Under the pieces are notes generated by a model. That model was not told the origin of the DNA. It searched no databases and worked only from the letters and a program-made list of their open reading frames with translations. Position numbers and translations under genes: made by a program. Shown here piece by piece: positions 8,134 to 36,245 of a stretch of DNA of 64,000 nucleotides (position 1 is its first letter; every line of letters begins with the position of its first letter). Where the stretch lies: positions 1 through 64,000 of IMG/VR virus record IMGVR_UViG_3300028422_001962. One strand, given 5' to 3'. Source of the DNA: a virus.

Positions 8134-8905
8134 TGTCGTTTACCCCTTTCCCAAGAAACAGATTGATAAAATACTGCTGTCCTTTGCCTGTGACCTTTGT
8201 GGTTTTGCTGATGGTGACGTGACCGTCCGAGTGCGTGATGGCGGTCTCTTTGACGCGAAACAGCCCCAGCTCCATGGCGCGCTGCGTCGGGGCGTTGTAG
8301 TCCGTGCCCTGACGTTTGATGAGGTAGCCGTCCTGCCGCAGTTTCTCAAACAGGCGGTTCTGTCCGATTTCGATGCCGTTGCCCTTGAGGATTTTCGCCA
8401 GTTCGCCGATGAGGATTGTACCGTCAGAAACCGATACCGCGTCAGCAAAAATGACCTTCGGCTCATTCTTGGCGGCTTCCAGTTGGAGGTGTTCCTTGGC
8501 GGCTCGCTCTTCTTTAAGGGCTGTCAGCACCTTAATCCAAGCGTCGGGATCGTTCATCATCTCTTCCAGCTTGCTGGGAGTGACATACGCACCATGCCTG
8601 CGGATGGTTGGCAGCACCTCGTGAGTTACCCAGCGTTTGAACTTTTTGGCATCAGGTTTGTCGGAGCGGAGGATGACGCTGTAGAGACCGCTCTCGGTCA
8701 CGGCGTACATTTCACGGGTCTGACCACCTGACACGAATTTGATTCGTGTCAGCTCATCACCGTCCAAACGATCCGCCACCTTGTTCGTGTCTGACAGCCC
8801 AAGCACATCACACACATCCTTGAGCACCCAGAGCGTTTCATCGCCGTGGCGTACTGTCCTTACTTCGTTCCCCTCGTAGGAGAACACGCGCAATTGATTG
8901 TCCAT
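8123..8905 (-). CDS. Phage antirepressor (BRO-N plus KilA-C/ANT domains)
   Basis: 260 residues from the ATG at 8905, preceded by TCAGGAGGCAAATCT. Residues 1-105 are a BRO-N domain (LRVFSYEGNEVRTVRHGDETLWVLKDVCDVLG..., ending HEVLPTIRRHGAYV). Residues 135-255 are the antirepressor C-terminal domain (GTILIGELAKILKGNGIEIG, then LFEKLRQDGYLI). Such proteins antagonise phage repressors or change developmental timing. A conserved leader-RNA structure lies immediately upstream and can sequester its Shine-Dalgarno sequence. Confidence 0.93.
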   Translation of the reverse strand: MDNQLRVFSYEGNEVRTVRHGDETLWVLKDVCDVLGLSDTNKVADRLDGDELTRIKFVSGGQTREMYAVTESGLYSVILRSDKPDAKKFKRWVTHEVLPTIRRHGAYVTPSKLEEMMNDPDAWIKVLTALKEERAAKEHLQLEAAKNEPKVIFADAVSVSDGTILIGELAKILKGNGIEIGQNRLFEKLRQDGYLIKRQGTDYNAPTQRAMELGLFRVKETAITHSDGHVTISKTTKVTGKGQQYFINLFLGKGVNDNDE

Positions 8906-8990
8906 AGATTTGCCTCCTGAAAAATGATTTTTTCGAGAGGCTGTAAACCTCTCACCATCCACAGGACAGCGAGAGGTTACTTGGCAACCG
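8906..8990 (-). promoter_or_regulatory. Leader-RNA element B with SD-sequestering hairpin
   Basis: On the minus strand: CGGTTGCCAA (plus 8981-8990), then a hairpin with CCTCTC/GAGAGG arms (8948-8976) enclosing GCTGTCCTGTGGATGGTGA. A second hairpin (8912-8941) then pairs GCCTC with GAGGC of the antirepressor ribosome site. The 19-nt core and the 10-nt box are identical in element A at 13297-13371, while the arm bases differ compensatorily. Confidence 0.65.
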
Positions 8991-8995
8991 AGCGT

Positions 8996-10990: not shown

Positions 10991-11055
10991 AAGCCCTCCA
11001 TAATACGGAAGGACGGCAAGTTTCCTCACCGCCCTCCGCAGTCTGTGTAATCAGG

Positions 11056-13130: not shown

Positions 13131-13296
13131 CTTGGTTTCCTCCTTCCCCGGTTGTCTCGTCCCGCTTTTGAAGCGCGAGCAGCTTCTTGGCGAGGCGCTT
13201 GGACACGATGCTTATCGCCGTCAGGATACCTGCGAGTTCTTCGTTAAGGTCGTCGTCGCGCAAGTCTGTGTCCGTGTTTTTTGCCTTTGTTTCCAT
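13114..13296 (-). CDS. Small acidic phage protein
   Basis: 60 residues, start at 13296 with CGGAGGTAGACCA. Its middle is one amphipathic helix (ELAGILTAISIVSKRLAKKL) between charged tails. No family recognised. The stop overlaps the next start by 17 bp, and the ribosome site is sequestered by leader element A, so its translation may be controlled. It is the first gene of the early replication operon after the sigma-like gene. Confidence 0.55.
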   Translation of the reverse strand: METKAKNTDTDLRDDDLNEELAGILTAISIVSKRLAKKLLALQKRDETTGEGGNQDEQDE

Positions 13297-13371
13297 TGGT
13301 CTACCTCCGTTTCTGAGGGAGGTTTGCTCCCCTCACCATCCACAGGACAGCAAGGGGAGGTTTGGCAACCG
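13297..13371 (-). promoter_or_regulatory. Leader-RNA element A with SD-sequestering hairpin
   Basis: On the minus strand: CGGTTGCCAA (plus 13362-13371), then a hairpin with CTCCCC/GGGGAG arms (13327-13359) enclosing the core GCTGTCCTGTGGATGGTGA. A second helix pairs ACCTCC (13318-13323) with GGAGGT (13303-13308), the ribosome site of the 13296 gene. The core can fold further as GUCC-UGU-GGAU. The same order and core occur in element B. Confidence 0.65.
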
Positions 13372-13387
13372 GGGATTGGGCGTTTTT

Positions 13388-13849
13388 TTATTTCACACCC
13401 ATAATGCTGCGCAGTTTTTCAATGACCTTCTGTTTGCGTTTGCCTACCGCTTGATGCGAGATGCCGACTTCGGAGGCGTAGTCCCGTTCGGTGCGGTCGT
13501 TATAAAAGAGCGCACTGATGAGCGATCTTTCGTCCGGGTCTAAATCATCAAGGGCATCCACAAGCTGTTCGAGAAGCAGCTTGTCCGCCACCAGTTCTGC
13601 CAAATCCACTGAATCGGCGACTTCGTAGCCTTCATCATTGAACTTGTCGAGGGAGAGGATGCTGCCCTCACGGGACTTTTCGCAGGTGCGGCAGTCCTTG
13701 GTGCAGCGGAAGCCGTTCTCATCACGGCATCTTTTAGCGCGTTCCTTGCGCTTGTGTTCCGCCCAGAGTGGGCGTTTGTAGGCTCTGTAAACTTCTTCCG
13801 TGACGGGGATTTGCTCGCTGTCAATTTCGATAAAGCATTGATTTTCCAT
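13388..13849 (-). CDS. Phage sigma-70-like transcription factor
   Basis: 153 residues, start at 13849 after AAGGAGTCGAAC. The N-terminus contains a cysteine cluster (RCTKDCRTCEKSREGS) after a basic stretch. The C-terminus is a region-4 HTH (LDDLDPDERSLISALFYNDR, then DYASEVGISHQAVGKRKQKV). This architecture recurs in the 173-residue protein at 40709-41230, which has the same layout (CDMDCCTCRFRKGG then LDKLDPDGRRICELLL). It probably directs early phage transcription. It is preceded by a strong terminator and a 7-bp-arm hairpin in its leader (13877-13897). Confidence 0.8.
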   Translation of the reverse strand: MENQCFIEIDSEQIPVTEEVYRAYKRPLWAEHKRKERAKRCRDENGFRCTKDCRTCEKSREGSILSLDKFNDEGYEVADSVDLAELVADKLLLEQLVDALDDLDPDERSLISALFYNDRTERDYASEVGISHQAVGKRKQKVIEKLRSIMGVK

Positions 13850-13977: not shown

Positions 13978-14028
13978 ACAAAAAAACGACCGCGAGAACA
14001 GCCCCTTTGGGACTGTCCGCACGGTCGT
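13978..14028 (-). terminator. Strong rho-independent terminator
   Basis: On the minus strand a long stem (ACGACCG... with ...CGGTCGT outer arms, CGGACAGTCCC with GGGCTGTTC inner, AAAG loop; plus 13986-14028) is followed by seven T's. It separates the small genes at 14060-14516 from the sigma-like gene, so the sigma operon needs its own promoter or antitermination. Confidence 0.85.
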
Positions 14029-14059: not shown

Positions 14060-14257
14060 TTAGCTCAGCAGGCTATCCTGTGATGGAATCACGATGGCTT
14101 CAGGCGGGCTATCTCCCGCTTTATACCTCAATGTACATCCTTCTTTTGGGAGAGGGGTCTGCCGGATGTTTTTGCCGTCAATTGTAGTAATTGTGTAGGT
14201 ACAGACATCCAATGTGCCGTACAGTTTGCCTTTCGGCGTTCGGATTTCTTTCGTCAT
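14060..14257 (-). CDS. Small hypothetical phage protein
   Basis: 65 residues from the ATG at 14257, which has AAAGGAAGTTGTTT upstream; the longer frame to 14314 is unsupported. Sequence: TKEIRTPKGKLYGTLDVCTY, then a beta-rich ITTIDGKNIRQTPLP and GCTLRYKAGDSPPEAI. No family recognised. It lies between the Com-like gene and the terminator, so it belongs to the first transcript from the operator-controlled early promoter. Confidence 0.55.
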   Translation of the reverse strand: MTKEIRTPKGKLYGTLDVCTYTITTIDGKNIRQTPLPKEGCTLRYKAGDSPPEAIVIPSQDSLLS

Positions 14258-14360
14258 AAACAACTTCCTTTCTATAAAAACAGCCGGATGCATCACGATT
14301 AACTCGTAACACATCCGGCCATTTGGTCACTCACATTCGGTGCCGTTGCTCGGTATGGTT

Positions 14361-14516
14361 TTAAACTGCGTTCTTTTTGGGTGAAGAGTTCGAATTTCGC
14401 TCTATAGATACGATGTTGCGGCAGTGAATACATTTGATTTTTATAGTCGTGCGCCCCTGCCATTCGAGGTCAAAAATTCGTTTTTTGCAGTTAGGACATT
14501 TGACCGTCTCTTGCAT
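14361..14516 (-). CDS. Com-like zinc-finger protein (51 aa)
   Basis: Too short for usual ORF thresholds. ATG at 14516 with a perfect AGGAGGTAAAT site, stop TAA at 14361-14363. Two CxxC pairs (KCPNCKKRI and KCIHCRNIV, Cys7/10 and Cys29/32) spaced 18 residues apart form a zinc ribbon as in phage Mu Com. Mu Com binds a hairpin in mom mRNA and frees its ribosome site. Here it is the first gene after the early operator, upstream of leader-RNA elements A and B that sequester ribosome sites, and the same phage block encodes methyltransferases. The functional link to those elements is inference. Confidence 0.75.
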   Translation of the reverse strand: MQETVKCPNCKKRIFDLEWQGRTTIKIKCIHCRNIVSIERNSNSSPKKNAV

Positions 14517-14545
14517 ATTTACCTCCTTTCACGCAAAATAGCAAA

Positions 14546-14573
14546 TTAGCTAATATGCGAAGTTATTAGCTAA
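14546..14573 (-). promoter_or_regulatory. Operator 2: palindrome controlling the phage early genes
   Basis: Perfect 10-bp inverted repeat TTAGCTAATA / TATTAGCTAA with an 8-bp spacer, 30 bp upstream of the Com-like start. Its left part shares GCAAATT(A/C)GCT(A/G)ATATGC with operator 1 (16 of 18 positions), pointing to the same XRE repressor. No strong consensus promoter is seen, as expected for a repressed or activated early promoter. Confidence 0.65.
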
Positions 14574-14595: not shown

Positions 14596-15306
14596 TTATT
14601 CGCGCAAATAATAGCCTCGCTCGCCGAGACGAATTTCTACGGACTGCTTAGAGACCTGAAAGAAGTTCGCTAAGCTGTTAACGACTGCACGATGCAGATA
14701 CCACCCCCCGCAAGTGCCAGCTTTATGCGAATGCTCCTCAATATATCGAGTTGTCATTTCATCAAACTGTTCAGGCGGCATAAGGATGCGCGGAGCGATG
14801 CCTCTTGCCTGCCACTCCATCCAGTCCTCGTCAGACCAGTTCGCCTTGTTGGATTCATTATATGCCGCAAAATCACTTCGAATTTTTACCGTCGTTTTAG
14901 GGTCGACTACAGAAATTGCAATATGATAGTCGCGATGTTTATGCCAATGAAAAGCTTCGTGAGCGATTGTGTTGTTCTTACACCCCTCGTTGCGATTGGC
15001 GATGGTATCAGGGTCGATAATCATCGTTCCATACCGTGCTTTTACCATTTTGTACGAACCATCGTCTTTGTCATAAATCTCGGTCAGACCGCTTGTAAAA
15101 CACATTTGACCGAGAACACTAAAATCCTCGGTTAGCCGTTTCTCGACAACGCGCAATCCCATGCGATGGCGGGCAACATACAGGATTGGCACCGCCATTG
15201 GGCGTATCAAAGCTTCCGGATAATACTTTTTCAGAAACTCCAAAGCTTCTTTATCAAATTCATCCCGACAGATGTGCGGAGCATTTGACGCAAGTAGCAC
15301 AGACAT
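14596..15306 (-). CDS. ImmA/IrrE-like metallopeptidase (phage anti-repressor protease)
   Basis: 236 residues from the ATG at 15306 (GGGAGGGATTAT upstream). The zinc-protease motif HEAFH is at 116-120 (H116, E117, H120), preceded by GTMIIDPDTIANRNEG, the usual beta strand before the catalytic helix. The C-terminal third ends in a winged-helix-like part (VNSLANFFQVSKQSVEIRLG). In ICEBs1 and phi105 this family cleaves the XRE immunity repressor after DNA damage. The repressor gene lies 16 bp upstream, so the pair is very probably the lysogeny switch. Confidence 0.88.
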   Translation of the reverse strand: MSVLLASNAPHICRDEFDKEALEFLKKYYPEALIRPMAVPILYVARHRMGLRVVEKRLTEDFSVLGQMCFTSGLTEIYDKDDGSYKMVKARYGTMIIDPDTIANRNEGCKNNTIAHEAFHWHKHRDYHIAISVVDPKTTVKIRSDFAAYNESNKANWSDEDWMEWQARGIAPRILMPPEQFDEMTTRYIEEHSHKAGTCGGWYLHRAVVNSLANFFQVSKQSVEIRLGERGYYLRE

Positions 15307-15322: not shown

Positions 15323-15715
15323 CTATGGTTGTTTATCTTCCTTACTGATGTCGTCAAGTACCTTTTTCCAAAAGTCGTCGCCAAGATTTTTCTCATTTGC
15401 ACGGCGCAGAGCCTTTCGGACGTGGGGTAATTGTGTGGACATCAAATATTCGGGCAAATCAGGAGCCGCGGTATCCCTTTCTCGCCCCGCAAGGTCGAGC
15501 ATCTCTTCTTTTTCATCGGGCGTAAGTTGTAAAACAACTGCAATTTTTTCGAGAATCTGCATTTCTGGCGGGTTTCGCCTGCCTTTGACGATATCCGATA
15601 GGTACGACGCCGTCATGCCCATTGCATCGGCAATGTCCTTTAGTTTGATATCTTCGCCACCGATGCCACGACCTTTTCTCTTGTTGTCGATATATGCGCC
15701 AAATTCTCCTGCCAT
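15323..15715 (-). CDS. XRE-family phage repressor
   Basis: 130 residues. An N-terminal Cro/CI HTH (residues 20-65: IKLKDIADAMGMTASYLSDI, VKGRRNPPEMQILEKIA) is followed by a short helical C-terminal domain (LPHVRKALRRANEKNLGDDF). The start at 15715 has AAGGAGAAAGGCT. It has its own consensus promoter and a perfect operator palindrome just downstream of the -10, so it is probably autoregulated. It pairs with the ImmA-like gene. A similar pair (about the same lengths and ending) occurs at 62986-63981. Confidence 0.9.
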   Translation of the reverse strand: MAGEFGAYIDNKRKGRGIGGEDIKLKDIADAMGMTASYLSDIVKGRRNPPEMQILEKIAVVLQLTPDEKEEMLDLAGRERDTAAPDLPEYLMSTQLPHVRKALRRANEKNLGDDFWKKVLDDISKEDKQP

Positions 15716-15754: not shown

Positions 15755-15811
15755 GCATATCAGCAAATTCGCTGATATGCGTATTATATCATGTGCTGAA
15801 AAAGATGTCAA
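15755..15811 (-). promoter_or_regulatory. Repressor promoter with operator 1
   Basis: Minus strand: TTGACA (plus 15806-15811), a 17-bp spacer, TATAAT (15783-15788), then the perfect inverted repeat GCATATCAGC / GCTGATATGC (15755-15780, 6-bp centre). The palindrome covers the expected transcription start, suited to autorepression. The IS30 element lies just upstream of the -35 and has not destroyed the promoter. Confidence 0.9.
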
Positions 15812-16167: not shown

Positions 16168-17457
16168 ATGTCTAATTATACCACATTTGATGAAAGAATG
16201 GAAATTGAAAATATGTTAGCCAAGAATTTTTCGTTTGGAGAAATGGCACGCTGGCTTAACAAAGACCGTTCTACAATTTCCAGAGAGGTCAAAAATCACT
16301 CTCTTACAGAGAAAACAGGTTATTCATCAATATCATTTAATTGTTGTAAAAATCGTTTAGATTGCGTAAAAATGCACGTCTGTAATATATGCAGCAGACA
16401 ATCTGCTAAGAATTGCCGTACTTGTAGCAAGTGCAATGATAACTGCTCAGATTTTGAGGAAGAAGTTTGTATTACAAGATTAAAACCGCCCTATGTTTGT
16501 AATGGTTGCGATGAAAAAAGCCGCTGTACTCTTGTTAAAACTATGTATCGAGCCACTGATGCTCACAAATTGGCAAAGAGTAAAATATCACAGTCCAGGC
16601 GTGGAATATTGACCACAGAACAAGAACTTAACCGACTAAATGAGCTTGTAACACCATTAATCTTGCAAGGTAACTCGCTGCATCAAATCTATGTAAACAA
16701 TATCGATAGCTTAATGTGTAGTGAGAAAACCTTGTACAATTACATAGATAACTGTTTCTTTGACGCTCGCAATATTGATTTACCTCGTAAAGTGCGTTAT
16801 CGTCCACGCAAAAAGAAACAAGAATTTAAGGTGGATAGAGGCTGTTATGTTAATCGCACATACGAATTGTATCAAAAGTATTTAGAAAATCACCCAAGCC
16901 AAAATCCAGTGCAAATGGATACTGTAATAGGCTCTATTGGTGGCAAAACCTTGCTAACTATACATTTCCCTAACACCAACTTTATGCTTGCGTTCTTGCG
17001 TAATAACAATACTTCACAGTCGGTAATCGATGTTTTTGATTATTTGTACTCTAAACTTGGCAGAAAGCTGTTTGAAAAGGCATTTCCTGTTATTTTAACC
17101 GATAGAGGCTCTGAATTTTCAAATCCATCAGCAATAGAAAGAGATACCAGTGGTATTCACAGAACGAATGTATATTTCTGCGACCCTAATGCACCGTTTC
17201 AAAAAGGTGCAATTGAGGTTAATCACGAGCTAATTCGTAGAATACTGCCAAAAGGCACTTCTTTTGACAACTTAACGCAATCACAGATTGATTTAATGAT
17301 GTGCCATATCAATTCTTACAGAAGAAAAAAGCTTGGTAACAAATCTCCATTTGAAGCTTTTGAGTTCTACTACGGCACTGAACTTTTCGATAAATTAGGC
17401 TACAACCCTATACCTGCCAACAGCGTTATGTTGACGCCAAAACTATTTAAAAGATAA
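16168..17457 (+). CDS. IS30-family transposase
   Basis: 429 residues. The N-terminal HTH (FDERMEIENMLAKNFSFGEM, then ARWLNKDRSTISREV) is the IS30 signature. A cysteine-rich zone (about 60-135, CNICSRQSAKNCRTCSKC and CNGCDEKSRC) is probably zinc binding. The catalytic DDE triad is D251 (MDTVIGSIGG), D312 (LTDRGSEF) and E350 (KGAIEVNHELIRRILPKG). The ribosome site AAGAAAGGAAT lies inside a small hairpin (GGTATTCC with GGAATAATACC), so translation may be limited too. Intact. Confidence 0.95.
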   Translation: MSNYTTFDERMEIENMLAKNFSFGEMARWLNKDRSTISREVKNHSLTEKTGYSSISFNCCKNRLDCVKMHVCNICSRQSAKNCRTCSKCNDNCSDFEEEVCITRLKPPYVCNGCDEKSRCTLVKTMYRATDAHKLAKSKISQSRRGILTTEQELNRLNELVTPLILQGNSLHQIYVNNIDSLMCSEKTLYNYIDNCFFDARNIDLPRKVRYRPRKKKQEFKVDRGCYVNRTYELYQKYLENHPSQNPVQMDTVIGSIGGKTLLTIHFPNTNFMLAFLRNNNTSQSVIDVFDYLYSKLGRKLFEKAFPVILTDRGSEFSNPSAIERDTSGIHRTNVYFCDPNAPFQKGAIEVNHELIRRILPKGTSFDNLTQSQIDLMMCHINSYRRKKLGNKSPFEAFEFYYGTELFDKLGYNPIPANSVMLTPKLFKR

Positions 17458-18124: not shown

Positions 18125-20998
18125 ATGCCATATACAGCACATCAAATAAAGTTCTTTGCCGAACAGCTTATGCTGAAACGTCCTCAGCACTCAATTGACG
18201 GGCTTGCTTCTGCTATGTCAGGAGTGAAAGTGGATTTGAACCCGCACCAAGTAGACGCCGCTTTATTTGCTCTGCAGTCGCCACTGTCAAACGGAGTGTT
18301 ACTTGCGGACGAAGTTGGGCTTGGGAAAACCATAGAAGCCGGTCTTGTTCTTGCTCAATGCTGGTCGGAGCGCAAGCGGAAAATCCTCTTGATTGTCACT
18401 GCCTCGCTCCGCACACAATGGAGAGCTGAGCTGGAGGAGAAATTTTTTATTCGTTCTGAAATACTGGAATCAAAGAATTATAACAAGGCGAAGAAAGAGA
18501 ACCCGTCTTGCAACCCGTTTTTAGCGCAGGACGCAGTGGTGATTTGTTCATATAACTTTGCATCGACAAAGATGCAGGATGTTCGGTCGGTAGATTGGGA
18601 CTTAGTTATTATGGATGAGGCGCATAAGCTTCGCAACGTCTATAAGCGAAACAACGTGATGGGCAACAATCTGAAAATTGCTCTCCGTGGGCGGAAAAAA
18701 CTGCTCCTCACGGCGACACCATTACAAAACAATTTGATGGAACTGTACGGCCTTGTCAGCATTATTGACGAGCAAGTTTTTGGCGACCCTGATATTTTTC
18801 GTGAAGTATATGTCAACGTGAGTAATATAGAGAGCCGCAACAGGAACCTAAAAGTACGCTTACAGAATTTTTGTAAAAGAACCCTACGCCGACAAGTGGC
18901 AGAATATGTGCCATATACCAATCGAACGGCTATTTTACAGGAATATACACCAAGCCACGATGAGGAGCAACTGTACTCAGACGTATCTGATTATTTACAA
19001 CGGGAACGACTTCACGCTTTTCCGCAAGGACAACGTCAACTCCTGATGTTAGTGGCGCGAAAATTGCTTGCATCATCTTCAATGGCAATTCACGGCACTC
19101 TGTCCACCATTATTGACCGCCTGAACCTAAAACTAAGTGATTATCAAGCCCAGTTGAAACTGACAGACCTTGATGATTACGATGGCATTGAGGAGTTAAT
19201 TGACGAGGAATCGAACGGTGCCGATAACGGTGCTGTGGATGAAATGGCGGCAGATTACGAAGGTATAAGGGCGGAAATTGAGGAACTGAAACAATACGCC
19301 GCTCTTGCCGAAAGAATTACAACCAACGCCAAGGGAGACAATCTTCTGACCGCTCTTAATCGCGGATTTGAAATGAATGAACGCCTTGGTGGTGCAAGAA
19401 AAGCAGTAATATTTACTGAATCAAAGCGGACGCAGCAGTACCTTATGAATCTGCTTTCCCAAAATGGTTATGATGGACAGATTGTTTTTCTGGACGGATC
19501 AAATAACGACCCAGTATCTACTCGCGTTTATAAGGAATGGCGCGAGCGGCACGAAGACGACGGCAAAATTTCAGGCTCAACAGCAGCGGATAAAAAGTCG
19601 GCGATTGTTGAGGAATTCCGCGACCGCGCTTCAATTCTCATCGGAACAGAAGCTGCTGCCGAGGGAATCAACCTGCAATTTTGCAATATTGTTGTCAACT
19701 ATGACTTACCGTGGAATCCTCAGCGCATAGAGCAGCGTATTGGCCGTTGCCACCGTTATGGGCAAAAGAATGATGTTATTGTCATCAACTTTTTAAATCG
19801 CGCCAACGCCGCCGATGAGAGGGTTTTTGAATTACTATCTCAGAAGTTTAGGCTGTTTGATGGTGTGTTCGGTTCGTCGGATGAAGTGCTTGGAGCCATT
19901 GAGGATGGCGTGGATTTTGAAAAGCGTATCCTTGATATTTACCAGTCTTGTCGTGAATCGGATGCAATCAGGGCGGCGTTTGATGCTCTGCAGGAGGAGC
20001 TATCCGAACAGATAAGTGAAAACATTACTAAGGCGCGGCAGTCTATATTGGAAAATTTCGATGAGGATGTTTTCAAACATCTGAAAGACTGTCACGAGGG
20101 GACAAAAGCAGAACTCGACAAGTTTTCCCGGTGGCTTTGTAACTTCTTTACTATGTGGGGAGCGGAACGGGTTGAGCCTCTCGACCAATGGCGCTTTGCT
20201 TACATAGAAAATGGCGAGCGTAAGACTTATAACCTCCGTTGGAAAGACGCAGAAGCACTACATGATGAGTTTTTGCGCCGGGATGGTGAACTTTGCACCA
20301 AGTGGATTGCTGAAGCAATGAATACAAATGCGCCTCCCGTTGCCATACGGTTTAATCATTCAGACTTGCCACAGAAAGACCATATCAGCTTTTTGGACAG
20401 CCATCCTACTCTGAATAACGGCATCATCTCAATCGACAAGCTGACGCATAGGGGTATTGACAATGAGGAGCATCTGATTGTATCTGTTGTCACCAACGAT
20501 GGTACACTCATTGATGGCGATGATGCAGGCAATATAATTGACCGTATTATGGAGCTACCGGCCGATATCGTCGGCGAGTGTTCGCCCGAATCGGAAACTC
20601 TTATCAGGCGGCGGCAGGAAGGTATTCAACGGCAAAAGGATGATATCGCCGAACGCAACAAGATGTATTTCTTGGAGCAGGTCGAAAAACTGGACGCTTT
20701 CAGTGAAGATTTAAAAGAAGGATTACAAAAGCAACTGAAAGCCCTGAAAAAGGAAATAGCAGAAAAACGTAAGGATTTTCGAACTTCAAAGGATATCTGC
20801 TCTCTTGATGAAATGTTGGAGAAACGATCGGCGATTACCGCCTTAGAAGATAAGCGCAAAAAAATGGAGCGGGAAATAAGCCTCGAAGAAGATAGGATTA
20901 CCCTTGAGAATGAGGCTTTACAGGAAGATATCCGCACCCGTTTAAACGGCGAAATCGAAACCGAAACGATAATGACTTTCTCGTTCGAGATAGTATAG
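18125..20998 (+). CDS. SNF2/RapA-like helicase with C-terminal coiled coil
   Basis: 957 residues. Q-motif-like LNPHQVDAALFAL, motif I DEVGLGKT (62-69), DEAH (164-167), LTATPLQNNLMELYG (motif III), ITTNAKGDNLL linker, and motif VI QRIEQRIGRCHRYGQ near 532. This is the RapA/HepA type of SNF2 translocase. From about residue 830 a long charged coiled coil follows (EKLDAFSEDLKEGLQKQLKA and on). An insertion of about 110 residues separates the helicase lobes. It sits 14 bp before the methyltransferase gene. SNF2 proteins paired with a methyltransferase and Res-type partner are known in defence islands; here it probably translocates on DNA to locate or process unmodified DNA. Confidence 0.9.
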   Translation: MPYTAHQIKFFAEQLMLKRPQHSIDGLASAMSGVKVDLNPHQVDAALFALQSPLSNGVLLADEVGLGKTIEAGLVLAQCWSERKRKILLIVTASLRTQWRAELEEKFFIRSEILESKNYNKAKKENPSCNPFLAQDAVVICSYNFASTKMQDVRSVDWDLVIMDEAHKLRNVYKRNNVMGNNLKIALRGRKKLLLTATPLQNNLMELYGLVSIIDEQVFGDPDIFREVYVNVSNIESRNRNLKVRLQNFCKRTLRRQVAEYVPYTNRTAILQEYTPSHDEEQLYSDVSDYLQRERLHAFPQGQRQLLMLVARKLLASSSMAIHGTLSTIIDRLNLKLSDYQAQLKLTDLDDYDGIEELIDEESNGADNGAVDEMAADYEGIRAEIEELKQYAALAERITTNAKGDNLLTALNRGFEMNERLGGARKAVIFTESKRTQQYLMNLLSQNGYDGQIVFLDGSNNDPVSTRVYKEWRERHEDDGKISGSTAADKKSAIVEEFRDRASILIGTEAAAEGINLQFCNIVVNYDLPWNPQRIEQRIGRCHRYGQKNDVIVINFLNRANAADERVFELLSQKFRLFDGVFGSSDEVLGAIEDGVDFEKRILDIYQSCRESDAIRAAFDALQEELSEQISENITKARQSILENFDEDVFKHLKDCHEGTKAELDKFSRWLCNFFTMWGAERVEPLDQWRFAYIENGERKTYNLRWKDAEALHDEFLRRDGELCTKWIAEAMNTNAPPVAIRFNHSDLPQKDHISFLDSHPTLNNGIISIDKLTHRGIDNEEHLIVSVVTNDGTLIDGDDAGNIIDRIMELPADIVGECSPESETLIRRRQEGIQRQKDDIAERNKMYFLEQVEKLDAFSEDLKEGLQKQLKALKKEIAEKRKDFRTSKDICSLDEMLEKRSAITALEDKRKKMEREISLEEDRITLENEALQEDIRTRLNGEIETETIMTFSFEIV

Positions 20999-21011
20999 GA
21001 GGATTTTATAT

Positions 21012-22592
21012 ATGCAGAAACTTGAGCTCACGTGGATTGGTAAGGGCGATGAGCCCGCTGTCGAACCACGTATACTGCTTCACGATGCTTCAAAGGATTA
21101 CGGCGACCCCGCCGCTGATAATATGCTGATCCACGGTGATAACCTGCTCGCGCTGAAAGCCTTGGAGCAGGAATTCGCCGGGCAGGTGAAGTGCATCTAT
21201 ATTGATCCTCCATATAACACGGGCAGCGCTTTTGAACATTACAACGACAACTTAGAACACTCCACCTGGCTATCGCTAATGGTTCCGCGCCTGCGTATCC
21301 TGCGTAATTTGTTGAGTGATGACGGTAGTATTTGGATTAGCATTGATGACGAAGAACGCGATTATCTCAAAGTGGTCTGCGATGAAATATTTGGCCGCAA
21401 TTGCTTCGTGAGTGCAGTGTGTTGGCGCAATTCTGATAATAGTAACAATAATGCTTTAACATTTTCGATTGACCACAATTATATTTTAGTTTATGGTCGG
21501 AATCCCGGATGGAGGCCGAAGTTTCTTAATGATCCGAGTAAACGAACGCACTTTAAGAATCCCAACAATGACCCGCGGGGCCCATGGTTTGACGGAAATC
21601 CTGTTAATAATCCGGGATTGAGAGTAAATCTCCAGTACAACATCACCACTCCAAACGGGAAAATTATTAAGCACCCACCGAATGGCTGGCGTTGGTCATG
21701 GGAAACCATCCAAGAAAAGATGAAAACAGGTGAAATCCGATTTTCGGAGGATGAAACGCGACTAATAAGGCGAACTTATCTTAATGATATGGAAGGATTG
21801 CCACCGTCAACATTATGGACGGATTTGGATACGACAGGGCATACTCGTAAAGCAAAATATGAATTAAAAAACTTATTCCCTGAGGTTCCGGTAACCAGCC
21901 TGTTCAGTACCCCGAAGCCAGAACTGTTAATCAATTATGTTCTACAACTGGCAACTAATTCCGGCGACCTCGTTCTTGACTCGTTCCTCGGCTCAGGCAC
22001 AACCGCCGCAGTTGCTCACAAGATGGGACGGCGATATATCGGTATCGAACTAGGCGAGCATTGTTATACTCACTGCCTGCCCCGCTTGCAAAAAGTAGTG
22101 GACGGCGAACAAGGCGGCATTTCTAAAGCCGTAGACTGGCAAGGCGGTGGCGGTTTCAAGTTATACGAACTTGCATCCACGCTGATTGTGACGGACAAGC
22201 ACGGCCAATCTGTCATTAACGACAAGTATAATGCGCAAATGCTCGTCGCCGCAATCGCCAAACTCAATGGCTACGATTATGCGCCTGATACCGATGTGTT
22301 CTGGAAACAGGGAAAAAGTCAGGCGGGCAGCTTCATCTTCGTCACAACCGAATACCTTACGGCGGCACAGCTTGACGATATCTCCCGCGACCTGCCGGAG
22401 TATGAACGTCTGCTTATTTGCGCCCCGGCATTTGATATTGGTCTTGGCAAACGCTACGAGAACATAAATGTCCGTAAAATTCCGCAGTCGGTTCTCGATA
22501 AGTGTGAGTATGGTGCGGACAACTACAACCTGAATATTGTAAATCCCCCCGAACTGGACGAAGACGAATGGGAGGACGGAGAAGATGCTTAG
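21012..22592 (+). CDS. mod: Type III-like DNA methyltransferase (Mod)
   Basis: 526 residues with AGGAGGATTTTATAT before the start. HGDNLLALKALEQEFAGQVK leads to IDPPYNTG (D65-Y68, catalytic motif IV), and LDSFLGSGTT at 322-331 is SAM motif I: the beta-class order of type III Mod proteins, which make N6-methyladenine. The region 140-300 is the target-recognition part. The C-terminal third (from about 375) may contact the partner subunits. Its stop overlaps the res start by 8 bp, so Mod and Res are probably made in balance. Confidence 0.92.
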   Translation: MQKLELTWIGKGDEPAVEPRILLHDASKDYGDPAADNMLIHGDNLLALKALEQEFAGQVKCIYIDPPYNTGSAFEHYNDNLEHSTWLSLMVPRLRILRNLLSDDGSIWISIDDEERDYLKVVCDEIFGRNCFVSAVCWRNSDNSNNNALTFSIDHNYILVYGRNPGWRPKFLNDPSKRTHFKNPNNDPRGPWFDGNPVNNPGLRVNLQYNITTPNGKIIKHPPNGWRWSWETIQEKMKTGEIRFSEDETRLIRRTYLNDMEGLPPSTLWTDLDTTGHTRKAKYELKNLFPEVPVTSLFSTPKPELLINYVLQLATNSGDLVLDSFLGSGTTAAVAHKMGRRYIGIELGEHCYTHCLPRLQKVVDGEQGGISKAVDWQGGGGFKLYELASTLIVTDKHGQSVINDKYNAQMLVAAIAKLNGYDYAPDTDVFWKQGKSQAGSFIFVTTEYLTAAQLDDISRDLPEYERLLICAPAFDIGLGKRYENINVRKIPQSVLDKCEYGADNYNLNIVNPPELDEDEWEDGEDA

Positions 22593-25332
22593 AGAACCTT
22601 ATTCGGCGAAATCATACTCCTATAACTCAAAATACATTGACAATCGCCTTGCCCTCCGTCCCCCTCAGAAGGAGAGCTTGGAGCGGTTCGCGCGGATTGT
22701 GGATATACTCTCCCTCTCAAAAACACCGAACTTGGATGAGGAACTCATAAAAATCCGTGAACTGTTCCCAACACTCACCAGTTTTGAGCGGGACTTTCCG
22801 TCGGTATGCTTCGCCCTTGCCACGGGCATAGGCAAAACTCGATTGATGGGCGCAATGATTGCCTATCTGCACTACGAGAAAGGTGTCAATAATTATTTTG
22901 TGATGGCCCCCAACCTCACGATTTATAAGAAGCTGAAAAACGACCTCGGTAACCCGAACAATGAAAAGTACGTGTTTCGAGGTTTAGATAAGTTCGTCAA
23001 CGCGCCACGCATTATCGATGGCGACAATTACGAAGAATTCCGTCAGATGTCGCTGTTTGAAGGCGGCGTTACCATCAACGTCTTTAACATCAGCAAACTG
23101 AACTCAGAGAGCGGACGGATGCGCCGCTTGCAGGAGGTTCTTGGGCAGTCTTATTTTTCGTATTTACAATCCTTGCCCGACCTCTGCATCTTTATGGACG
23201 AAAGCCACCACTACCACGCCGACAGAGGGTTTGACACCATAAACGAGCTTCACCCAGTCCTTGGTGTGGAACTTACCGCAACACCACAAATTCAAAAAGG
23301 CGCACGGAAGATCGATTTCAATAACGTGGTGTATGAATACTCTCTTGCTCATGCGCTGAACGACGGGCTTTACGTCAAAGTCCCCGCCGTATTCACTCGC
23401 CGGGATTTTCGCCATGAAGAATATACCCCGCAACAACTTGACCGCGAAAAACTCAACGACGGCATCCGTCTGCACGAAGAAACAAAAAGCAGACTGGATG
23501 TGTACGCTCGTACCCACGGCAAGTCCATTGTTAAGCCGTTTGTGCTTGTTGTTGCCAAAGATACAACCCACTCTCGGGAAATACGCGAGTATCTCACTTC
23601 GGATGCTTTCTTTCATGGATATTACAAAGATAAGGTATTGGAAATCAACTCGGCACAGCGCGGCTCGGAAAAGGACGAGAACATAGAGCTGCTACTCTCG
23701 CTTGAGTTGACCACCAATGTAATCGAAATCGTCATTCACGTCAATATGCTCAAGGAGGGCTGGGACGTGACGAACCTCTATACCATTATCCCTCTCCGCG
23801 CTTCGGCATCCGAAACACTCACGGAACAGACCATTGGGAGAGGTTTGCGTTTGCCTTATGGTCAGAGAGCAGGAGTGGATGAGGTTGACAGACTCTCTAT
23901 CGTCAGTCACGACCGTTATCAGGCGATTGTAGACCTTGCTAAAGACCCGAACTCACTTGTCCGTAAGATTTACTACATTGAGGAACAAGAACTTCCCGAA
24001 AGCGAAGACGGGCGCGAAACCGTACCTCTTCCGACAGTTTATGACGCGTTGACCTCCGGCGAGAGCTTCACACAACAGTTGGCGTTTACCCTGCGTGAAA
24101 CGGCGACGGACGAATACAAAGCTGAAAAAACGCCCGACCAGACGATGCTTATCGCAAGCATTGTCCAAAGTATAACCGCTAAAACGGTGGTCGAGGTTAA
24201 CAGGCAGGTTCGGAATATTAATGCCATTAATGATGAACAAACGCGCAAATGGGTGCATGGCAGTATTGTTACGCAAGCCATACAGCAACTTCCCGAATTT
24301 GGGCTAAAAGAAGAGGACTTAACAGCAGTTGTCACGAAAGCAATCGAAACTTGTGCCCAAGCCCTCACAGAAAACGTCATTCCGATACCGCAGTCAGTCG
24401 TTCAGCCCCATACCGAAGTTAAGCGTGGATTTTATGACTTCACGCTTGATACGAGCCGTATGCGTTGGCATCCGTCCGACGACACACTCCTCGGCACGGA
24501 ACTCATGGAGGGCGGCGAAACCTTTACGCTGGAAACAGGAACAGTTGCATTTGCAAAGATTGATACAGTGGAAAATGAGATTGTCCGACATATTATCGTC
24601 CATGATAACGTGGACTACGCAACTTGTTCAGACCTCATCTATTCACTTATCACAGATGCCAAGCGGCACTTTTTGTCGTACTTGAATGATGAGGAAACGG
24701 AAAAAGTCATGCGCGATCGGCAGCGCACCATCGCTGAAATCATCTACGCGCAGATGAACGAGCATTTTTATAAAGAGGAAGTCAGCTATAGGGCAGCCAA
24801 TATGCGCCCATTCACAAGGATTGAACCGAGTTTCGGCGGCAAGTTTAAATCGGATGAGATATATGACTTGCGGACGCCTATGGCGGCATCTGATGTGAAG
24901 TCCAAGATATTCAGCGGATTTAAAAAAGCAGGTCATACGCTGTACAAATTCGACAGTGACACGGAGCGAACTTTTGCAGTCGTGCTGGAGAACGATAATG
25001 CCGTTCTTCGTTGGTTGCGTCCCGCGCCGCGTCAGTTTAACATCTACTGGGGACAAGGCGGCGCGAGCCGTTATGAGCCAGATTTCATTGTTGAGACCGC
25101 CGAAACAATTTATATGTGCGAACCGAAAGCGAGCAACAAGATGCGAGATGCGGACGTGCTTGAAAAGCAGGAAGCCGCAGAAGAATACTGCCGCGCCGCC
25201 AGTGAATTCAACACCGAAAACGGCGGTAAACCGTGGAAGTATGTTCTTATTTCTCACGATGAAATCCGACCGCAGTCGAGTTTTACTTATCTCGCAAAAC
25301 AAGCTTCGCACGAGCAGTTATCGATAGAGTAG
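22585..25332 (+). CDS. res: Type III-like restriction subunit (Res), SF2 helicase-nuclease
   Basis: 915 residues. ATGIGKTRLM (79-88) is motif I, MDESHHYHAD near 204 is motif II (DESH), VELTATP motif III, and TEQTIGRGLRLPYGQRAG motif VI. The C-terminal end carries a PD-(D/E)XK-like nuclease: YEPDFIVETAETIYMCEPKA (about 829-850), with D and E-x-K in family spacing, the Lys preceded by Pro. This matches type III Res. With Mod it should cut DNA lacking the Mod methyl mark. Overlaps mod by 8 bp; 25 bp to sbcD. Confidence 0.92.
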   Translation: MLREPYSAKSYSYNSKYIDNRLALRPPQKESLERFARIVDILSLSKTPNLDEELIKIRELFPTLTSFERDFPSVCFALATGIGKTRLMGAMIAYLHYEKGVNNYFVMAPNLTIYKKLKNDLGNPNNEKYVFRGLDKFVNAPRIIDGDNYEEFRQMSLFEGGVTINVFNISKLNSESGRMRRLQEVLGQSYFSYLQSLPDLCIFMDESHHYHADRGFDTINELHPVLGVELTATPQIQKGARKIDFNNVVYEYSLAHALNDGLYVKVPAVFTRRDFRHEEYTPQQLDREKLNDGIRLHEETKSRLDVYARTHGKSIVKPFVLVVAKDTTHSREIREYLTSDAFFHGYYKDKVLEINSAQRGSEKDENIELLLSLELTTNVIEIVIHVNMLKEGWDVTNLYTIIPLRASASETLTEQTIGRGLRLPYGQRAGVDEVDRLSIVSHDRYQAIVDLAKDPNSLVRKIYYIEEQELPESEDGRETVPLPTVYDALTSGESFTQQLAFTLRETATDEYKAEKTPDQTMLIASIVQSITAKTVVEVNRQVRNINAINDEQTRKWVHGSIVTQAIQQLPEFGLKEEDLTAVVTKAIETCAQALTENVIPIPQSVVQPHTEVKRGFYDFTLDTSRMRWHPSDDTLLGTELMEGGETFTLETGTVAFAKIDTVENEIVRHIIVHDNVDYATCSDLIYSLITDAKRHFLSYLNDEETEKVMRDRQRTIAEIIYAQMNEHFYKEEVSYRAANMRPFTRIEPSFGGKFKSDEIYDLRTPMAASDVKSKIFSGFKKAGHTLYKFDSDTERTFAVVLENDNAVLRWLRPAPRQFNIYWGQGGASRYEPDFIVETAETIYMCEPKASNKMRDADVLEKQEAAEEYCRAASEFNTENGGKPWKYVLISHDEIRPQSSFTYLAKQASHEQLSIE

Positions 25333-35072: not shown

Positions 35073-36245
35073 ATGGCGCAACTTGCCGAAATCATCAAGT
35101 ATGAAGGAGATAATTCTACCTTCATATGGAAGCATCCTTGTGAGGACTTCAACACAACTACACAGTTGATTGTTCATGAGTCGCAGGAAGCGATATTCTT
35201 TATGAACGGTCAGGCGTTAGATTTGTTTGGAGCGGGTCGGTACACGCTCGAAACCGAAAATATCCCGCTCATCAAGAAGTTTCTCAACAAACCGACAGGC
35301 GACAAAACGCCGTTTCATTGCGAAGTCTATTTCATCAATAAGACCGAGCAGATGGCGATTCGCTGGGGAACCGACAGCAAGGTGCAGTATGTAGAACCTA
35401 CATATAAATTCCCGCTTTCCATTGGTGCAAGCGGTGAAATGGCTCTTTCTGTTGACGATTCGCGAAAACTACTCGTCAGACTCGTTGGCACGGAGCGTGT
35501 TTTGGAACAACCAAAGCTGGTGGCTTTCTTCCGGGCTTTCCTGATGACGAAGGTAAAAACCTACATTGCACAAACAATGAAAGCCAGTGCTATCAATATA
35601 TTTGAGATTGACGAGCATCTAGAGAGCTTCTCCACGGAAATCAGGGAACGCCTGATTAAAGACTTCTCGGATTACGGTGTTGCACTGAAACGCTTCTTCG
35701 TCACCACGATTGTGAAGCCGGACGGTGACCCTACATATGAGAAGTTCAAGGATTTGCATTACAGGCAATACGCCGATGTTGCTGAAGCCCAACTTCAACA
35801 GAGAGTAGGCATCATCGAACAGCAAACCGAAGCCCAGCGTATGGTGATTGAGGCTCAGGGAATCGCACAAAAGCGAACTACCGAAGGTTACTCCTACCAG
35901 CAAGAGCGTGGATTCGATGTTGCTGAAAAGGTTGCCGCAAACGAAGGTGCTGGGAACTTCAGCAGTGCAGGAATCGGATTAGGCATGATGGCTGGAATCG
36001 GTGGTGCGGTCGGCGGCGCAGTAAGTGGCACCTTCAATGAAGCATTCGCTTCGATTGGAACGCCGAACGCTTCCGCTCCTAATCGGTTCTGTGACGCTTG
36101 TGGTGAGGAAATCACCCCCGGCGCGGCATTCTGCGATAATTGCGGAACTCAGCTAAGTTTACCTGATGTGTGCAATAAATGCGGGTTCAAGTTCATCAAG
36201 CCCGGCAAATTCTGCCCTAAATGCGGCACAAAGAGGGAGGGATAA
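35073..36245 (+). CDS. SPFH-domain protein with C-terminal double zinc ribbons (YdjI/'virion core' type)
   Basis: 390 residues. Residues 1-250 are the SPFH/band-7-like domain of the group annotated 'virion core protein' (IIKYEGDNSTFIWKHPCEDF, VHESQEAIFFMNGQALDLFG, GRYTLETENIPLIKKF), followed by an Ala/Gln-rich helix. A Gly-rich hydrophobic stretch (GIGLGMMAGIGGAVGGAVSG, about 305-325) may touch the membrane. Two zinc ribbons end the protein (CDACGEE...FCDNCG and CNKCGFK...FCPKCG). SPFH proteins assemble ring or cage scaffolds on membranes. It starts after GGGAGTGATAATTT and is 3 bp from the next gene. Confidence 0.85.
   Translation: MAQLAEIIKYEGDNSTFIWKHPCEDFNTTTQLIVHESQEAIFFMNGQALDLFGAGRYTLETENIPLIKKFLNKPTGDKTPFHCEVYFINKTEQMAIRWGTDSKVQYVEPTYKFPLSIGASGEMALSVDDSRKLLVRLVGTERVLEQPKLVAFFRAFLMTKVKTYIAQTMKASAINIFEIDEHLESFSTEIRERLIKDFSDYGVALKRFFVTTIVKPDGDPTYEKFKDLHYRQYADVAEAQLQQRVGIIEQQTEAQRMVIEAQGIAQKRTTEGYSYQQERGFDVAEKVAANEGAGNFSSAGIGLGMMAGIGGAVGGAVSGTFNEAFASIGTPNASAPNRFCDACGEEITPGAAFCDNCGTQLSLPDVCNKCGFKFIKPGKFCPKCGTKREG

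Follow-up and report, generated by a model that had tools for sequence, protein, structure and literature searches.

In phage lambda, N is encoded by the first early gene before a terminator and acts on nascent RNA at the nut sites. A protein and an RNA are also combined in conAn of pLS20, in which ConAn1 and the RNA conAn2 head a long operon and serve terminator read-through (according to the conAn sections of PMC8955417). The put RNA of HK022 and canT of Tn916 are cis-acting RNAs that let polymerase pass terminators, and have no encoded protein partner (as the part of PMC11658703 on these elements describes them). Here, we analysed 64,000 nucleotides of viral DNA (IMG/VR record IMGVR_UViG_3300028422_001962, positions 1 to 64,000; hereafter the window), in which a small Com-like zinc-ribbon gene, referred to as com, is followed by a structured RNA, the post-com element (PCE), that is fused to an intrinsic terminator. 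As in protein-plus-RNA processive antitermination, a protein gene and an RNA element stand together at the start of the operon, and the two probably form a functional pair. On what the conAn sections of PMC8955417 report, conAn of pLS20, likewise a two-part system of protein and RNA at an operon start, is the closest described design.

The likeness to these systems is one of arrangement. The PCE had no match in pLS20, and the com profile gave no strong Com-like match there (best E 9e-4; the ConAn1 gene itself was not located in the record). No shared sequence was detected, and pLS20 was set aside as a relative. With lambda N and nut, the window shares the position of an early gene before a terminator; sequence kinship was not expected, and the PCE differs in being fused to the terminator itself. 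The put and canT RNAs were compared with the PCE through Rfam only, with no match. Neither the PCE nor the two downstream leader elements described below (A and B) matched any Rfam family, and an Rfam identity for them was rejected.

The com gene (14361-14516, minus strand) encodes a 51-residue protein, MQETVKCPNCKKRIFDLEWQGRTTIKIKCIHCRNIVSIERNSNSSPKKNAV, and is preceded by an AGGAGG ribosome-binding site (14522-14527, minus). The two CxxC pairs are CPNC and CIHC, and the four cysteines (C7, C10, C29 and C32) are unvarying across the com family alignment of 25 rows. The AlphaFold2 model has four strands and a mean pLDDT of 80. An earlier note had listed this open reading frame (ORF), with no strand given, as an overlooked zinc finger of Mu Com type and the first early gene. 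The ORF is real, as judged from its ribosome-binding site and from orthologues in related Clostridia phages at the equivalent position, and its place as the first gene beyond the immunity genes is supported; it was not wholly overlooked, because five of six database phage matches (in Coprococcus, Agathobacter and Dorea phages) already carry the annotation 'translational regulator'. Two database phages bearing com are classified in Ca. Heliusvirales. Profile searches found com at 27 viral loci and 16 genome loci, at least two of the latter (L043 and L044) not being real members; these two and L003 were excluded from the family. Six of eight IMG/VR loci retrieved via the neighbouring repressor have com at the equivalent position. 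A second, diverged prophage in the same genome (G000, contig C462; L002 and L164) has its own com-like gene and PCE, and its com product (36% identity) is encoded between the ImmA/IrrE and sigma-like genes.

Single-sequence searches with the window protein gave only weak zinc-ribbon matches. PHROG 6417 'translational regulator' was matched at E 9e-5 and gpCom at 0.008. PHROG 6417 was matched by 24 of the 25 family members at E ≤0.01 and is annotated in Heliusvirales phages; its name is an annotation, and no RNA partner is named there. The Mu Com family PF10122 was matched by 12 of 25 relatives at E ≤0.1 (best 4.9e-4). For the window protein (P0001), PF10122 was not among the best 25 of 26 matches (E up to 1) and its gathering score was not reached. 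We therefore call the protein Com-like rather than a member of the family. On the other hand, the com family profile scored 32.5 against Mu Com, compared with 6.6 on average and 24.3 at most in 300 cysteine-preserving shuffles, and with 7-15 for other zinc ribbons, namely YacG and the double ribbon of the window. Thus, the protein is Com-like beyond its cysteine pattern, and its assignment to the Mu Com type is upheld. As in Com, a small zinc protein carries two CxxC pairs at a spacing of about 16-18 residues, and the profile similarity extends past the cysteines. Foldseek found no close structural relative of the model at E ≤0.001; VIA-align matches, to generic zinc ribbons (LysW, ZitP and ribosomal L33), were weak, with a Z of 3.1 at best.

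In Mu, the 3' half of com itself contains the target RNA in cis (at 1376-1394 in L070, where com spans 1269-1457), and the PCE adjoins com. In some phages (L004, 1863-1889; L108; L123) the com reading frame, with the C-terminus TEQR, enters the PCE, so that, as in Mu, the end of the coding region contains the RNA element. The two systems differ in what follows. The gene after com is p84 in the window or a sigma-like gene in most relatives inspected, and not mom (no Mom-model search of the window was made); the candidate target here adjoins a transcription terminator, and not a hidden start codon as in Mu. The PCE covariance model had no match in the Mu region. The hexamer CGAGCA is common to the Mu site and the PCE.

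The PCE was recognised by inspecting the DNA 3' of com in relatives. Its parts run in the order invariant ACCGAGCARMGG, a variable triplet, a loop, the complement of the triplet, a bulged A, CC, AAAT, GCCGGA...TCCGGC and a U-run. The window copy (14276-14357, minus), which contains the stretch ACCGAGCAA, scored 84 bits (E 1.6e-22) with covariance model R1, being one of the model's own sequences, and has a folding energy of -35.8 kcal/mol (z -4.8). The conserved 5' part, ACCGAGCAACGG (14343-14354, minus), ends in GG, which pairs with CC at 14325-14326 in stem P1 (14325-14344, minus; GG-CAC / GTG-(A)-CC with the bulged A). All three variable pairs of P1 form in 46 of 48 distinct cores, in eleven combinations, compared with a mean of 15 and a maximum of 26 for shuffled partners (5000 shuffles). 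In an alignment of 46 sequences, pairing in P1 reaches 99.6%, and the covariation score of the whole structure is 0.457, against 0.176 when shuffled. The terminator hairpin, AAATGGCCGGA...TCCGGC (14276-14324, minus; U-run at 14276-14280), has a counterpart with a U-run after every one of the 48 distinct cores.

The PCE and com occur together. R1 detected the element in all 46 com loci searched (E 8e-9 or better), 20 of which had contributed sequences to the model. Among whole records, R1 found it in 9 of 9 with com and in 0 of 11 without com, although two of the latter, L012 (which begins near the sigma-like gene) and L016 (with just 2.3 kb upstream), are little informative. A pattern scan of DNA alone gave 71 PCE copies in 69 stretches. 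Beside 64 of these, not more than 260 nt upstream, stands a Com-like ORF (profile E 1e-28 to 1e-4) that ends between 23 nt past the element start and 219 nt upstream of it, and five copies are too close to a contig or locus end. Two contigs have two com genes and two PCEs each (L121/L139 and L085/L099). In a survey of 257 genomes at order and class level, strong PCE matches occurred in the window's own genome only; the weak matches (25-41 bits) had no core, and one of them, L150, has a divergent two-CxxC ORF directly upstream (E 2e-4). The literature covered on phage antitermination, Com, Heliusvirales and DUF2800/DUF2815 RNA motifs, with most subscription papers outside its scope, does not describe the com-PCE pair; within it, the PCE is an undescribed RNA.

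Upstream of com lie the immunity genes, an XRE-family repressor (15323-15715, minus; PF01381, E 2.8e-8) and an ImmA/IrrE-type peptidase (14596-15306, minus; PF06114, E 1.5e-7). The repressor promoter, TTGACA-17-TATAAT (15783-15811, minus), agrees in 12 of 12 bases, and directly after its -10 box is the palindrome O1, GCATATCAGCGAATTTGCTGATATGC (15755-15780, no strand given), recognised from sequence and from a comparison of upstream regions. A site resembling O1, the operator-like O2 GCATATTAGCTAATTTGCT (14540-14558, minus), stands upstream of com. Over 22 bases of the window, the repeat common to the two upstream regions agrees at 19 positions, where the best among 20 shuffles reached 16; it is similar in L008, L010, L050, L035 and L046; L011 was left out of this comparison. 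From this shared repeat, com is probably under the control of the repressor. Beyond the PCE terminator, p84, a 65-aa ORF (14060-14257, minus) with relatives in L004 (83% identical) and L012 (88%), starts 18 nt after the U-run, which leaves no room for a promoter; the median distance to the next start codon is 72 nt (n=48). A second intrinsic terminator (13980-14028, minus) separates p84 from sig, which encodes a sigma-70 region-4 protein (13388-13849, minus; PF04545, 24.7 bits, gathering 24.1). Sigma-70 region 4 was found in 7 of 8 next-gene proteins hand-picked from the 48 (E 1.4e-4 or better).

We propose that the Com-like zinc ribbon and the PCE act as a pair in antitermination into the early genes and a sigma-like cascade, a proposal that we hold at about even chances. 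In a lysogen, the repressor would silence the com promoter, and upon induction com would be the first gene expressed. The Com-like protein would then bind the PCE on the nascent transcript, at the unpaired ACCGAGCARM and the bulged-A hairpin, and would thereby allow RNA polymerase to read through the terminator next to it and on into the lytic early genes. One of the leading genes there usually encodes a sigma-like factor, which would in turn act at the promoter-like elements A and B. Computation supports the gene, the RNA fold, the com-PCE association, the terminator, the shared operator-like repeat and the presence of the sigma-like gene further on; we infer the RNA binding, the antitermination and the cascade. 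A lambda-like scheme is the simplest working model. The direction of the effect, antitermination rather than enhanced termination, could go either way on present evidence.

Several observations weigh against this proposal. No alternative antiterminator pairing was seen by eye, and the CGAGCA hexamer shared with the Mu site, attained by 0.04 to 0.08 of shuffles, was too weak and was rejected as proof. The operator-like repeat is clear in some phages only, and in L002, L006 and L009 it does no better than shuffles. Terminators also lie between the immunity genes and sig in phages without com, so that a terminator at that place does not require com. Two PCE copies have no com directly upstream: in L127, com lies 1.6 kb upstream, and in the L085 record, com genes stand at about 2.6 kb on the upstream side and 1 kb on the downstream side. 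In L080, one of the five end-near copies, com is 1.1 kb upstream, degenerate in its first CxC, with a repressor-like ORF between. Since com and the PCE are adjacent, their joint gain and loss could also be mere linkage, and co-occurrence alone is no proof of contact, because neighbouring genes can be co-inherited. Against linkage, the strongest points are that com and the PCE occur as doubles, that the distance between them varies, and that the RNA is kept even where the proteins have diverged greatly.

Linkage is at the centre of a different account, in which the PCE works as RNA alone, in the manner of put of HK022, or is a plain insulating terminator, and com acts elsewhere and is co-inherited. 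Adjacency by itself can produce co-occurrence, unrelated terminators stand at the equivalent place in com-less phages, and antitermination by RNA alone exists (as the relevant parts of PMC8955417 and PMC11658703 report). We consider this account unlikely, although a serious contender, since the pairing persists with very divergent com, with intervening ORFs and over distances of -23 to 219 nt, and the com doubles coincide with PCE doubles. The same association and RNA evidence, together with a site at the end of the com message, would also suit a Com-like protein that binds the PCE yet raises termination, a negative feedback limiting its own operon. We regard such feedback as improbable: p84 in the window is reachable through the terminator alone, so that a factor strengthening the terminator would close the operon from its own promoter, and Mu Com is an activator of what follows (in the portion of PMC6483171 on Com). 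A zinc ribbon without an RNA target, which would bind DNA or RNA polymerase and act as an anti-repressor or as an inhibitor of the polymerase, would accord with the generic ribbons among the weak structural matches, but the tight link of com to a covarying RNA makes it, in our view, a shade more improbable still. The polA leader hairpin was also considered as a target of com, and was rejected since its shape is kept with and without com. This hairpin (10991-11036, minus; GGCGG...CCGCC-type) keeps its shape with a changing sequence in nearly all relatives, and in many of them T-runs come next.

The earlier note had tentatively placed the target of the Com-like protein in the two downstream leaders, where it would free hidden ribosome sites as Com does for mom. 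Both leaders, with their hairpin-enclosed ribosome sites, exist. Element A (13297-13372, minus) has GGTTGCCAA, 12 nt and TGTCCTGTG, followed by hairpins that enclose the ribosome-binding site of the gene for a 60-aa product, which starts at 13296; element B (8906-8992, minus) has the same motif before the Bro-like gene starting at 8905. The boxes of the window stand at 13343-13370 and 8962-8989 (minus). Across the phage records the boxes read GGTTGCCAA or GGTACTCAA, 12 nt, TGTCCTGTG, and relatives carry GGTTGCC or GGTACTC subtypes. The exact pattern was found in 81 stretches, and all 35 contigs of at least 20 kb with it were searched as whole records. Only one of the 35 has a clear com, plus a weak partial match in another, and the canonical element is missing from most com-bearing phages; the motif is thus common in phages with no Com-like gene, an outcome that the note itself had named as refuting its idea, and com as regulator of A and B was rejected. 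The ribosome-site hairpins in both elements and the Com-like protein had spoken for this role. It is now very hard to credit, given also the box spacing and a first stem that keeps 9-10 of 10 pairs in only 36 of 91 distinct copies. What stands of the Mom-like circuit is a plausible cis-acting RNA role for a Com-like protein, with A and B unsupported as its targets. Methyltransferase-like genes, the other part of that circuit, are present, but nothing connects them with com; no shared position or motif was seen, no further testing was made, and the tie was rejected.

We lean towards A and B being promoters for the phage's sigma-like protein. With the spacing left free, 33 of the 34 first boxes lying no more than 60 nt away were at exactly 12 nt; for a further 10 of 44 matches to the second box, a first box was absent. 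There are 1-4 copies per record, on a single strand in 34 of 35 records, and a sigma-like protein is present in 16 of the 35. On the other side, 19 of the 35 records have no recognisable homologue of the window sig, and the good pairing of stem 1:2 in 36 of 91 copies is compatible with an RNA hairpin too. A transcript starting at A or B could leave the ribosome site free, and a read-through transcript could hide it. In the T4 lysozyme gene, the ribosome site is hidden in the read-through transcript and free in the locally started one. The boxes, which Rfam does not match, likely form a family of phage promoters. A and B may thus resemble promoters, possibly those used by the sigma-like protein, and their 5' leader could either cover or expose the ribosome site. 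Through the sigma-like gene, which comes directly after the PCE terminator, com may still influence A and B indirectly. The boxes are sometimes in tandem and sometimes about 30 kb downstream, with up to four per phage.

The minus-strand gene order is XRE repressor, ImmA/IrrE peptidase, com, the 65-aa ORF, the sigma-70 region-4 protein, the 60-aa ORF, a 119-aa ORF, DUF2800, DUF2815, polA and the Bro-like gene, the last of these names resting partly on gene order. Directly upstream of the repressor is a 429-aa ORF (16168-17457, plus), which we take to resemble an IS30-type transposase. A gene row resembling a defence cluster (18125-25332, plus) adjoins the prophage and presumably encodes an SNF2-like helicase, a type III-like methyltransferase and a type III-like restriction helicase. 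An 85-aa ORF (35988-36245, plus) has two zinc-ribbon motifs. In the com-less phages L015 and L019, the immunity end (~6-9.4 kb) is replaced by opposite-strand genes, one of them presumably HsdM-like. The nine-gene core of Candidatus Heliusviridae includes the five genes DUF2800, DUF2815, polA, VRR-NUC and SNF2, and phages with the DUF2800, DUF2815 and polA core are very common in the human gut (both as stated in the sections of PMC9226167 on these phages).

In the literature covered, no description of early-gene switching in the DUF2800/DUF2815/polA phages was found. We tentatively suggest, at somewhat less than even confidence, a new two-part antitermination switch in Clostridia (Heliusvirales-like) phages, in which a repressor-controlled Com-type finger would read an RNA fused to the terminator between the immunity and lytic genes, and so commit the phage to early expression. 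If this is true, a zinc finger and its matching RNA would give these phages a lambda-N-like step, in the form of a small protein-RNA pair that is easy to test, and Com-type RNA recognition would extend from Mu to phages of Gram-positive bacteria. It would also account for a 50-residue protein keeping the same position across very different phages.
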